Shown here one piece after another: positions 59,464-62,717 of a DNA stretch of 64,000 nucleotides. Origin of the DNA: Thalassobius vesicularis (GTDB lineage Bacteria > Pseudomonadota > Alphaproteobacteria > Rhodobacterales > Rhodobacteraceae); contig NZ_SSMD01000001.1 in NCBI RefSeq assembly GCF_004799325.1, forward strand, positions 124,001 through 188,000, in the 5' to 3' direction. Each line of letters begins with the position of its first letter. Position 1 is the first letter of the stretch. The translations under genes and the position numbers were made by a program. The notes beneath the pieces were generated by a model. The model made no database searches and was not told the DNA's origin. It was given only the letters and a program-made list of their open reading frames with translations.

Positions 59464-60405
59464 ATGGCCGACACGCGACACACCAAGGTTCTGATCATCG
59501 GCTCCGGTCCGGCGGGCTACACGGCTGGCGTTTATGCCGCGCGCGCCATGCTGTCCCCGATCCTGGTGCAGGGGATTGAACCCGGCGGCCAGCTGACCAC
59601 CACGACCGAGGTCGAAAACTACCCCGGCTTCGTCGAGATTCAGGGCCCCGACCTGATGATCAAGATGCAAGAGCACGCCACCGAAATGGGGTGCGAGATC
59701 ATCGGCGACATCATCACCTCGCTCGACACCTCCAAGCGCCCGTTCACGGCGACCAGCGACTCGGGCACCGTCTATACCGCCGACGCGGTCATTCTAGCCA
59801 CCGGCGCCCGCGCCAAGTGGCTGGGCCTGCCGTCCGAGGACGCCTACAAGGGCTTCGGCGTTTCCGCCTGCGCCACCTGTGACGGCTTCTTTTATCGCGG
59901 GCAGGAAATCGTTGTGATCGGTGGCGGCAACACCGCCGTCGAAGAGGCGCTCTTCCTGACCAACTTCGCCAGCAAGGTCACCCTGATCCACCGCCGCGAC
60001 GAGCTGCGCGCCGAAAAGATCCTGATCGACCGCCTGATGAAGAACCCCAAGATCGAGCCGCTGTGGTTCCACACCCTTGACGAAGTCGTGGGCGAGGATA
60101 ACCCCAAGGGCGTCTCGGCTGTGCGCGTCAAGCATGTCGAAACCGGCGAGATTTCCGAGATCCCCTGCAAGGGCGTTTTCGTTGCGATCGGCCACGCCCC
60201 CGCGAACGAGTTGGTCAAGGACGTGCTGGAAATGCACGACGGCGGCTATGTCACCGTCAAGCCCGGCTCGACCGAGACCTCGATCCCCGGCATCTTCGCC
60301 GCGGGTGACCTGACCGACCACAAGTACCGTCAGGCCATCACCTCGGCCGGGATGGGCTGCATGGCCGCGCTGGACGCGGAACGCTGGCTCGCCGGACAAG
60401 AGTAA
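59464..60405 (+). CDS. trxB: Thioredoxin-disulfide reductase
   Basis: An FAD flavoprotein that reduces thioredoxin with NADPH. The 313-residue sequence has the FAD-binding [16 protein letters not shown], the redox-active CATC (Cys136-Cys139), NADPH-binding [15 protein letters not shown] and the C-terminal [17 protein letters not shown]. Length is normal. Divergent from an Lrp-type regulator; ends in a clear terminator at 60424. Confidence 0.97.
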
Positions 60406-60423
60406 TCCGACCCATCCGTTTCG

Positions 60424-60451
60424 AAAGCCCGGCCAATGTGCCGGGCTTTTT
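60424..60451 (+). terminator. Intrinsic terminator of trxB
   Basis: AAAGCCCGG pairs with CCGGGCTTT across an eight-base loop, followed by a T-run, 18 bases after the stop. Confidence 0.9.
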
Positions 60452-60546
60452 CGCGTTTTGGGGATTTGGGTGGCAGAATTTCCCTTTCTCTGCGGAAAAC
60501 CGGCCTGCGACAAAGTTTGTTCTTTCTTGAACGCAGATTTCCTGTA

Positions 60547-60566
60547 TGTGTTCACCAGTGAACACA
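60547..60566. promoter_or_regulatory. Perfect 20-bp inverted repeat upstream of the MarR-Sat-CysC gene
   Basis: TGTGTTCACCAGTGAACACA: two 9-bp arms around a 2-bp centre, ending 16 bases before the ATG. This is the size and position expected for a winged-helix dimer operator. The obvious candidate is the winged-helix domain encoded by the same gene, implying autoregulation. Confidence 0.75.
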
Positions 60567-60582
60567 CCTTGAGTCGAAGGCC

Positions 60583-62664
60583 ATGTCGCCCAATCCCATG
60601 ACCAAATCGGATGTTGCGGAAGAAGACCTGCTCTTCCGTCTCCTGCGCCAGCTTGATCAGGCGCCGGAGGCTTCGCAGCGCTCGACGGCTCAGGCGCTGG
60701 GGATTTCCCTCGGACGGCTGAACACGCAGCTGCGCGCTGCGGCAGAGGCCGGGTTCATCAAGATCACCGAACGTGCCGGACCCGACAAACGTCAACGTTT
60801 CGCCTATGCGCTGACCGCGCGCGGCGCGACGGAAAAAATCCGGCTCACCGATCGGTTCCTGACGCGCAAGCTGGCGGAATACGATCACCTCCACGCAGAA
60901 CTCACCGGCACGTCCAGCGGCCTAATTACCTTGAAAACTAGGGCTAAATTCATGCAAAACAACCTTACACCGATCCCCGAACTCTATGTCTCCGCCGACT
61001 CGGCGCAGAAGCTGAAGACGGAAGCGGCCGATCTGGTCAGCTGGGATCTGACCCCGCGCCAGATCTGTGACCTGGAGCTGCTGATGAACGGCGGCTTCTA
61101 CCCGCTGAAGGGCTTCCTGGGCGAAAACGACTACAACTCGGTCGTCGAAAACATGCGCCTCGAAGATGGCAGCCTGTGGCCGATGCCGATCACCCTGGAC
61201 GTTGGCACCGACTTTGCCGACAAGCTGGAAATCGGTCAGGACATCGCCCTGCGCGATCAGGAAGGCGTGATCCTTGCGACCATGACCGTGACCGACCGTT
61301 GGGAAGCCGACAAATCGAACGAAGCTGAAAAGGTCTTCGGCGCCGATGACCTGGCCCACCCCGCCGTCAACTACCTGCACAACACCGCTGGCCGCATCTA
61401 TCTGGGTGGCCCGATCACCGGCATCCAGCAGCCCGTGCACTACGATTTCAAGGCCCGCCGCGACACCCCGAACGAGCTGCGCGCCTACTTCCGCAAGCTG
61501 GGCTGGCGCAAGGTCGTCGCCTTCCAGACCCGCAACCCGCTGCACCGCGCCCACCAAGAGCTGACCTTCCGCGCCGCGCGCGAAGCTCAGGCCAACCTGC
61601 TGATCCACCCCGTCGTCGGCATGACCAAGCCCGGTGACGTCGACCACTTCACCCGCGTGCGCTGCTACGAGGCCGTCCTGGACAAGTACCCGGCCGCCAC
61701 CACCACCATGTCGCTGCTGAACCTGGCCATGCGTATGGCTGGCCCGCGCGAAGCGGTCTGGCACGGCCTGATCCGTAAAAACCACGGCTGCACTCACTTC
61801 ATCGTTGGCCGCGACCACGCCGGACCGGGCAAGAACAGCCAGGGTCAGGACTTCTACGGCCCCTACGACGCGCAGGAGCTGTTCAAGAAGCACGAAGAAG
61901 AAATCGGCCTGGAAATGGTCGACTTCAAGCACATGGTCTACGTGCAAGAGAAGGCGCAGTACTTCCCCGTTTCCGAGGTCCCCGAGGGCGATACTGTCCT
62001 GGACATCTCGGGCACCGAACTGCGTCGCCGCCTGCGTGAAGGCCTGGAGATCCCCGAGTGGTTCTCGTTCCCCGAAGTCGTGCAGGAACTGCGCCGCACC
62101 TCGCCGCCGCGCTCCAAGCAAGGCTTCACCGTGTTCTTCACCGGTCTGTCGGGTTCCGGCAAATCGACCATCGCCAACGCTCTGATGGTCAAGCTGATGG
62201 AGATGGGCGGCCGCCCCGTGACCCTGCTGGACGGCGATGTTGTGCGTAAGCACCTGTCGTCGGAACTGGGCTTCTCGAAAGAGCACCGCGACATCAACAT
62301 CAAGCGGATCGGCTACGTCGCCTCCGAGATCACCAAGAATGGTGGTATCGCGATCTGTGCGCCCATCGCGCCCTACACCGCGACCCGCCGCGCCGTGCGC
62401 GAGATGGTCGAAACCTACGGCGCCTTCGTCGAAGTGCACGTCGCCACCTCGCTGGAAGAGTGCGAAGCGCGCGACCGCAAGGGCCTGTACAAGCTGGCCC
62501 GCGAAGGCAAGATCAAGGAGTTCACCGGGATTTCCGATCCCTATGAATCCCCGACCGCTGCCGAGCTGGTCGTCGAAACCGAGAACGTCGAGGTCGATCA
62601 CTGCGCCCATCAGGTCCTGCTGAAGCTGGAATCGATGGGTCTGATCTCGGGCGGCTGGGGCTAA
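60583..62664 (+). CDS. MarR/EPS-type winged-helix domain fused in frame to bifunctional sulfate adenylyltransferase/adenylylsulfate kinase
   Basis: A single 693-residue frame joins three parts. Residues about 15-110 form a winged helix of the MarR EPS-associated type (EDLLFRLLRQLDQAPEASQR, STAQALGISLGRLNTQL, then TARGATEKIRLTDRFL). From Met124 (60952) it is a complete 570-residue Sat/CysC as seen in Rhodobacterales: ATP sulfurylase (QTRNPLHRAH, His321/His324; GRDHAG) and APS kinase with P-loop GLSGSGKST (521-529). It activates sulfate to APS and then PAPS. The joining segment (60895-60951) is AT-richer, and all stops in it are out of frame, so it looks like a former intergenic spacer. Either this is a real regulator-enzyme fusion, or translation restarts at 60952, where only a weak AGGG serves as ribosome-binding site. 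No cysDN genes are here. Confidence 0.9.
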   Translation: MSPNPMTKSDVAEEDLLFRLLRQLDQAPEASQRSTAQALGISLGRLNTQLRAAAEAGFIKITERAGPDKRQRFAYALTARGATEKIRLTDRFLTRKLAEYDHLHAELTGTSSGLITLKTRAKFMQNNLTPIPELYVSADSAQKLKTEAADLVSWDLTPRQICDLELLMNGGFYPLKGFLGENDYNSVVENMRLEDGSLWPMPITLDVGTDFADKLEIGQDIALRDQEGVILATMTVTDRWEADKSNEAEKVFGADDLAHPAVNYLHNTAGRIYLGGPITGIQQPVHYDFKARRDTPNELRAYFRKLGWRKVVAFQTRNPLHRAHQELTFRAAREAQANLLIHPVVGMTKPGDVDHFTRVRCYEAVLDKYPAATTTMSLLNLAMRMAGPREAVWHGLIRKNHGCTHFIVGRDHAGPGKNSQGQDFYGPYDAQELFKKHEEEIGLEMVDFKHMVYVQEKAQYFPVSEVPEGDTVLDISGTELRRRLREGLEIPEWFSFPEVVQELRRTSPPRSKQGFTVFFTGLSGSGKSTIANALMVKLMEMGGRPVTLLDGDVVRKHLSSELGFSKEHRDINIKRIGYVASEITKNGGIAICAPIAPYTATRRAVREMVETYGAFVEVHVATSLEECEARDRKGLYKLAREGKIKEFTGISDPYESPTAAELVVETENVEVDHCAHQVLLKLESMGLISGGWG

Positions 62665-62687
62665 GTCCCTCGCCTTCGGAACAATCG

Positions 62688-62717
62688 GGCGCGCCCTTCG
62701 CGGGGCGCGCCTTTTTC
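62688..62717 (+). terminator. Intrinsic terminator of the Sat-CysC gene
   Basis: GGCGCGCCC-TTCGC-GGGGCGCGCC followed by TTTTT. The stem is 9 bp and very GC-rich, 24 bases after the stop codon. Confidence 0.9.

Follow-up and report, generated by a model that had tools for sequence, protein, structure and literature searches.

Background

Enzymes that also bind DNA and control their own pathway have been described in Escherichia coli, with BirA, PutA and NadR as examples (PMC8249747); the term "trigger enzyme" for them goes back to Commichau and Stulke 2008, as referenced there. PutA is described as a single-target regulator of putA/putP and is switched by proline (PMC8249747). The trigger enzymes named there are BirA, NadR, PepA, PutA and PyrH, and no sulfate-activation enzyme is among these five. 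A sulfur-assimilation enzyme described as a transcriptional activator is the PAPS reductase of Tuber melanosporum (PMC4848566), which is a different enzyme and comes from a fungus.

Here we report the comparative analysis of a gene from Thalassobius vesicularis, found in a window of 64,000 nucleotides (the whole stretch of DNA that was analysed), in which a MarR_EPS-type winged helix, hereafter the head, is fused in frame to the bifunctional ATP sulfurylase/APS kinase (Sat/CysC). The gene differs from those of BirA, PutA and NadR in its MarR_EPS head and in a conserved second start for a head-less enzyme, and switching by a ligand is proposed here by analogy with them. The initial annotation of the window had known of no described regulator of this composition, and no description of a Sat/CysC-MarR_EPS fusion was recognised in the literature searched, as judged by title or abstract. 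On present comparisons, four things appear to be new: the type of enzyme, the type of head, the second start with its conservation, and the candidate code by which the head family would recognise its operators.

Results and Discussion

Architecture of the gene

The features of the gene, with the evidence for each in parentheses, are as follows.

60583..62664, + strand: long open reading frame of 693 aa, comprising MarR_EPS winged helix, linker, ATP sulfurylase and APS kinase (ORF and profile searches)
60613..60906, + strand: winged-helix domain, residues 11-108 (TIGR04176 match, structure model, Foldseek)
60709..60747, + strand: predicted recognition helix, residues 43-55 (structure model; residues 43 and 47 track operator base 2 in free-standing homologues)
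60907..60951, + strand: linker, residues 109-123 (protein sequence and length both vary; frame kept in 95/95 loci)
60940..60943, + strand: putative internal Shine-Dalgarno sequence AGGG, 8 nt 5' of codon 124 (uses the rare Arg codon AGG)
60952..62664, + strand: predicted short product, a 570-aa Sat/CysC without the DNA-binding part (conserved start; free-standing relatives begin at about this point)
60973..61428, + strand: PUA-like N-terminal domain of Sat (Pfam)
61459..62097, + strand: ATP sulfurylase catalytic domain (Pfam; motifs invariant)
62119..62577, + strand: APS kinase domain with intact P-loop (Pfam; motif alignment)
62687..62712, + strand: terminator-like hairpin 3' of the gene, weak because one was found against 2.8 expected in shuffled sequences

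The initial annotation had claimed one uninterrupted frame joining a MarR/EPS-type winged helix to a full-length 570-residue Sat/CysC from Met124, and this description was borne out. The frame begins with ATG and contains no internal stop; residues 13-108 match TIGR04176 (MarR_EPS) above its cut-off of 88, with 94.6 bits for residues 1-123 and 90.0 bits for the whole protein; and residues 122-689 match NF004040 (bifunctional Sat/CysC) with 1061 bits against a cut-off of 669, covering positions 4-571 of the 572 in the profile. Codon 124 is an ATG at 60952, from which the encoded protein would be 570 aa long (calculated masses, 63.8 kDa for this form and 77.5 kDa for the 693-aa form). The junction (60895-60951) is, as had been noted, richer in AT than the whole frame (49% versus 37%), and each of the two remaining reading frames contains two stops there.

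Pfam placed PUA_2 at residues 131-282, ATP-sulfurylase at 293-505 and APS_kinase at 513-665. The motifs QTRN (315-318), HRAH (321-324) and GRDHAGPG, which we take to be those of ATP sulfurylase, were invariant in the 31 aligned fused proteins, as were residues 521 and 523-529 of the P-loop, presumably the APS kinase motif; by alignment, the catalytic motifs of Sat/CysC are thus intact. The match to NF004040 is full-length with the conserved motifs kept, and that profile has no DNA-binding head. In the 10 Rhodobacteraceae plasmid records that head the matches listed, the aligned part starts no earlier than residue 114-129. In fungal ATP sulfurylase the C-terminal domain senses PAPS, its APS-kinase-like domain being regulatory. 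Fungal ATP sulfurylases (PDB 1i2d, 1m8p) were the best PDB sequence matches of the enzyme part (E 2.4e-206); no DNA-binding part was matched in them, and the P-loop is intact in the present protein. In the host genome (3.79 Mb in 46 contigs), the whole-protein search matched this gene alone and gave no match to a second Sat or APS kinase.

The structure model of the head (mean pLDDT 82) has three helices, a two-strand wing and a long helix at residues 79-108, and the MarR family dominated the first 31 rows of the Foldseek comparison (E 1.3e-4 to 1.1e-3, TM 0.45-0.62). The modelled fold is accordingly MarR-like, similar and not close, with a winged helix, a recognition helix, a wing and a helical dimer part. 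The model of the full-length protein was poor (mean pLDDT 57).

The head scores above the cut-off of TIGR04176, the MarR family EPS-associated regulator, and has its candidate operator in common with free-standing homologues (see below). These homologues are mostly encoded in open frames of about 120-225 aa, whereas here the domain is the N-terminus of an enzyme; and the family name implies an exopolysaccharide locus, whereas the scanned neighbours here, a pyridine-nucleotide oxidoreductase, an Hsp20 and a DUF465 protein (Pfam), are not polysaccharide genes. The head is of the MarR_EPS type as a domain, and we do not call the whole protein an EPS regulator. The oxidoreductase gene, directly upstream at 59464-60405, is by its sequence presumably trxB, encoding thioredoxin reductase. 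A trxB-like neighbour was found with a loose motif at 50/95 fused and 25/49 unfused loci and was not used as evidence.

Distribution and age of the fusion

The initial annotation had called for a search for the same architecture in related genomes. Within the genus, the head query matched 7/9 genomes, six of which (6/9) have the fused frame, in open frames of 695-704 aa; the remaining head-matching genome has only two free-standing homologues. The family sample gave head matches in 144/394 genomes and the fused frame in at least 91/394, as called by identity and open frame among the matches listed. Together with four further genomes of the genus, these 91 make up the 95 fused loci analysed below. 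Among named genomes, 294 relatives were found in 354 stretches, and of the best 80 of these 294, 77 hold the whole gene, all 77 with a length of 687-700 aa. The fused gene occurs among them in Phaeobacter, Leisingera, Shimia, Roseovarius, Pelagimonas, Mameliella and Defluviimonas, and the genus group of the host includes Thalassovita autumnalis and T. mediterranea. The two sets overlap and are not independent, since at least 26 named loci out of the 80 are also among the 95 fused loci.

Head and enzyme share one reading frame, uninterrupted by a stop from one part to the other, at all 95 fused loci, for most of which only the first part of the enzyme was taken in, and the distance between the two parts takes 11 different values. 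The listed open frame is short in two genomes (267 aa in G040 and 601 aa in G388). Three fused genomes (G244, G264 and G305) each show one stop in the aligned range, presumably the terminal stop.

A recent stop-codon loss, which the initial annotation had offered as its second reading, and likewise an assembly error or chance, could draw on the AT-rich host junction with its out-of-frame stops. The same open junction in 95 genomes and the uniform length of the 77 whole named genes contradict this explanation, as does the tree of the heads, in which a single branch (SH-aLRT 98) separates the 95 fused heads from 48 free-standing ones (a quick tree of 100 columns with a long-branch warning); we give it practically no credence. 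A stop between the two parts in close relatives was looked for and found at none of the 95 loci, and a frameshift or sequencing slip at the junction is countered by the shared frame in as many genomes, the relatives including named isolates.

Median dN/dS, from 1394 pairs with an enzyme dS of 0.1-0.9, was 0.131 for the head, 0.241 for the linker, 0.115 for Sat and 0.085 for CysC. These values are rough, since the median dS of the head, 1.2, is near saturation, and 71 pairs for the head and 261 for the linker were lost; they indicate that the head is under purifying selection.

When 56 full-length enzymes (34 fused and 22 unfused) were placed in one tree, the fused and unfused sequences interleaved, and well-supported branches forced at least nine changes. 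A tree of shorter enzyme sequences from 91 of 144 loci, with short stretches dropped, forces at least four changes. The host enzyme groups with that of another fused genus genome (G006) in the 91-locus tree and stands apart from it in the 56-enzyme tree. The head and enzyme trees are both compatible with a fusion that arose once and was then lost repeatedly, or with gene exchange. At the class level, 89/385 genomes matched the head, and the long frame was found only in two members of the family (G000 and G217); frames in the other 87 are of 343 aa or less. The query of this search was the head of one protein, so that fusions with a distant head could be missed.

Three loci deserve mention. The most divergent fused head, that of G303 (L138 380-500), is 45% identical and is accompanied by two exact core palindromes 25 nt apart. 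Two unfused loci match the fused protein from an early point, L169 (G119) from residue 94, with one stop, and L182 (G219) from residue 79; these two may hold remains of a head.

A predicted palindromic operator upstream of the fused gene

Two palindromic sites lie upstream of the gene (no strand assigned).

60547..60566: operator 1, TGTGTTCACCAGTGAACACA, a perfect dyad 16 nt 5' of the ATG (predicted from conservation)
60519..60532: operator-like upstream site GTTCTTTCTTGAAC, with 1 mismatch, 31 nt from operator 1

The core of the putative operator, GTTCA-N4-TGAAC, was found in exact form within 500 nt upstream of 93/95 fused genes, of 0/49 unfused sat/cysC genes (two of the genus and 47 of the 61 unfused family loci listed) and in 0/95 shuffled upstream sequences. 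At one exception, L098, the contig breaks off 46 nt upstream, and the genome bears a strict site at the edge of another contig, beside trxB; the other, L102, has the core with one mismatch. The named loci have the exact core in 80/80 cases, at least 26 of which are shared with the 95-locus set.

The strict 20-mer occurs in 53/394 family genomes, with one site in each, and its reversed control in none; 44 of the sites are at the fused promoter, one is at the contig edge beside trxB and eight are elsewhere. Seven of these eight are inside open frames of more than 250 aa, for example that of an ABC ATPase. The eighth, from G169 (L276 990-1010), coincides with the start of a 109-aa ORF or slightly precedes it, this ORF being followed by an ABC-ATPase frame, and the head search of the family sample gave no match in this genome. 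We provisionally take this site to be a chance occurrence, and hold the main reading, self-repression with two starts, slightly less firmly because the site lies outside long open frames. A wider regulon was considered and rejected, the strict 20-mer occurring at most once per genome in the 394 genomes.

With up to one mismatch allowed, five of the six fused genomes of the genus have the site only at the fused promoter; the sixth, G006, has an operator with two mismatches. In the unfused G003 of the same genus, two sites with one mismatch were found, each within an open frame that is not near sat. The second core site of the host genome (C2:30880) is inside an open frame, and about 3.6 cores are expected by chance in that genome (3.79 million positions / 4^10); a second convincing site was not seen there. 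The promoter of its own gene is thus most likely the sole target of the fused protein, as far as the distribution of sites can tell.

In the alignment of 93 operators, A and T are conserved four and three bases 5' of the core (84% and 92%), resembling the last bases of a -10 element; CTTT is conserved about 20 nt further upstream (68-86% per base). These conserved bases imply that operator 1 covers the expected region of the transcription start, its position relative to -10 and +1 resting on the alignment. A scan for sigma-70 consensus promoters gave none, and all Rfam matches at 60380-61100 were below the gathering score, giving no RNA element. Between the operator and the start codon (60567-60582) is a ACTTTGAGTCGCC-like stretch, conserved at about 50-78% per base in relatives, perhaps as a weak ribosome site or a promoter segment.

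The inner positions of the dyad covary. Of 60 distinct operators, 33 have complementary bases at the inner pair 5/8 (21.2 expected; a value as high in 1 of 2000 shuffles), and complementarity is seen at the inner pair 6/7 in 29 of them (20.5 expected; 14 of 2000 shuffles as high); the outer pairs -1/14, -2/15 and -3/16 showed no covariation beyond the shuffles. A second core with up to one mismatch was found within 120 nt upstream at 21/93 fused loci and in 0/93 shuffled sequences, at a spacing of 31-34 nt in 12 loci, 47-49 nt in six and 25-29 nt in three.

This spacing bears on the direction of control. A head that activates transcription, or is required for it, could be suited by a further site placed about 3 or 4.5 helical turns upstream, a spacing seen in 18 loci out of the 21 (among 93) with such a site. 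However, operator 1 lies just 3' of the -10-like bases, a position at which bound proteins as a rule obstruct RNA polymerase; the earliest candidate start codon most often comes 16-20 nt after the core; and the unfused relatives, to judge from their sequences, do without head or operator. We therefore regard activation as unlikely.

Correspondence between head and operator in free-standing homologues

As the head adjoins the operator, their joint absence from unfused genes could be one deletion, and adjacency alone could explain their joint loss; free-standing heads were compared for this reason. The set comprised 48 homologues (40 of the family loci listed, with L008, L009 and L186-L191). A related palindrome, GYTCA-N4-TGARC, was found upstream of the free-standing MarR_EPS genes in exact form in 33/48 and with up to one mismatch in 43/48, compared with 0/48 in shuffled sequences (up to one mismatch) and 0/49 (exact) or 1/49 (up to one mismatch) in unfused sat genes. 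The palindrome is accordingly the predicted operator of the MarR_EPS regulator family. It is typically situated 85-175 nt before the matched domain in most of the free-standing genes of this type (L310-L349, L008, L009, L186-L188).

Within the 43 free-standing genes with a site, N47 goes with GTTCA in both arms in 17/18 cases and H47 with GCTCA in at least one arm in 22/25 (Fisher p 4e-8 for residue 47 versus arms), and L43 goes with GTTCA in 16/16. Two F43 proteins have GATCA in both arms; they are outside the 43, since their sites carry two mismatches. Residues 43 and 47 were the best two of 95 scanned columns, and both are in the predicted recognition helix (43-55). The fused heads have N47 in 95/95 and L43 in 94/95, and their operators have GTTCA. 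When corrected for relatedness, the match between residue and operator left two independent pairs on supported branches (p 1, with little power). The fused head most likely reads GTTCA-N4-TGAAC, a reading for which the comparative support is strong and is weakened by relatedness.

A probable second translation start at codon 124

In the alignment to the host enzyme, codon 124 is ATG, GTG or TTG at 93/95 fused loci (GTG or TTG in 6/95); at the other two the register has slipped and an ATG is found nearby. Four codons upstream, 91/95 loci have AGG, by alignment alone, a codon that is rare among the Arg codons in the remainder of the 95 stretches (29 of 2765). AGG[A/G/T] stands exactly 8 nt before the nearest NTG in 92/95 (86 ATG, five GTG and one TTG), 91 of these sites being AGGA or AGGG and one AGGT, and in the named set AGG[A/G] has the same spacing in 79/80 (69 ATG, eight GTG and two TTG). 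A Shine-Dalgarno-like 4-mer precedes the internal start in 79/80 and the long start in 1/80. The pattern used to locate the internal start contains part of that 4-mer site, so the fair figures for it are the alignment-based 91/95 for AGG and 93/95 for NTG; the long start was picked by rule, as the nearest start codon that leaves 9 nt or more behind the core, and its lack of such a 4-mer depends on that rule.

The residues of the linker around the internal site vary while AGG and NTG are conserved, and what is selected therefore seems to be the nucleotide sequence itself, in the role of a start site. The gene probably makes two products, a repressor-enzyme and a plain enzyme, with more of the short than of the long one predicted. 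The initial annotation had set a protein of 77 kDa against one of 64 kDa: the long form is indeed predicted, but not as one of two exclusive outcomes, since the conserved start at codon 124 predicts both. The internal start would also explain the frequent loss of the head, because a deletion leaves a working sat gene.

The free-standing sat/cysC relatives begin at about codon 124, and the Shine-Dalgarno sequence and NTG might on that ground be relics of a formerly separate sat gene, with the 77-kDa protein as the only product. Such relics, however, would have had to survive at the nucleotide level at 92/95 and 79/80 partly overlapping loci while the linker residues vary. The codon is no longer that of Met but GTG or TTG in 6/95, the register has shifted to a nearby ATG in two, and among unfused genes a Shine-Dalgarno-like 4-mer is found before the first ATG near the enzyme start in only 8/49. 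We consider relics quite improbable.

Proposed model and its alternatives

We consider it likely, from these comparisons, that the locus is a self-repressing sulfate-activation gene with two translation starts, the long protein of which represses its own promoter. The suggestion of the initial annotation that a single chain carries a DNA-binding part aimed at its own promoter gains support from the operator, from its match to the recognition helix and from the one strict site per genome. Transcription would start close to operator 1. A weak first start would give the long protein, whose MarR-type head would bind GTTCA-N4-TGAAC over its own promoter and leader and repress it, and the bulk of the enzyme would come from the strong internal start at codon 124, in the form of plain Sat/CysC. 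Because enzymes of the Sat and CysC kinds form oligomers, short and long chains probably co-assemble. With the head riding on the enzyme, occupancy of the promoter could report the amount of enzyme, and perhaps also its ligand state (APS, PAPS, ATP or sulfate), as in BirA, PutA and NadR; by this analogy, control by APS, PAPS or sulfate is plausible. The conserved fusion, the operator and its match to the head, the single site and the internal start are supported by sequence comparison; repression rather than activation, the isoform ratio, co-assembly and ligand control are what we infer.

A fuller version of the model is put forward tentatively, with somewhat short of even confidence: the enzyme would sense APS/PAPS or substrate load and signal to its sole operator, the ratio of headed to head-less chains would set the gain, and the result would be a one-gene loop across the Roseobacter group with a recognition-helix code in common with free-standing MarR_EPS repressors. 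A plainer scheme is homeostatic autorepression, in which the long protein represses by its own concentration with no metabolite signal from the enzyme part. One strict operator per genome agrees with this scheme, as do the free-standing MarR_EPS genes, which bear the same palindrome upstream and have no enzyme part. On the other hand, the head has been kept on the enzyme at 95 loci across the family, which is easier to understand, as an argument only, if the state of the enzyme matters, and a recognisable head is upstream of 0/49 unfused loci (best score 51, against at least 162 for fused loci). The plainer scheme is, to our mind, somewhat less likely than not.

Should the proposed self-repression with two starts be true, the entry step of sulfur assimilation would have a direct regulator in an abundant marine group (Roseobacter-type), one that can be tested on one gene and a 50-bp promoter, and sulfate activation would join the short list of enzyme-repressor fusions. 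A second start within a trigger-enzyme gene would be seen to serve for balancing enzyme against repressor, and the MarR_EPS family would gain a predicted operator, G[T/C]TCA-N4-TGA[A/G]C, with residues 43 and 47 as candidate determinants of specificity.

Context of sulfur metabolism

A search of the host genome with PF01507 gave one protein, L309 (G000:C5:237431-237940), which has CC and CxxC cysteine pairs. PF01507 presumably covers both CysH and CysD, and we take L309 to be of the CysH type by its cysteines. The CC and CxxC pairs are the signature of APS reductases; if L309 is such an enzyme, sulfur assimilation needs only APS. PAPS from CysC may then be dispensable for assimilation and, if so, would be for sulfation or signalling.

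On a Sulfitobacter plasmid (L308 2531-6740), a head-less sat/cysC adjoins polysaccharide genes (GDP-mannose dehydratase, tviB), which hints at how an EPS-type regulator and sat/cysC may have met.
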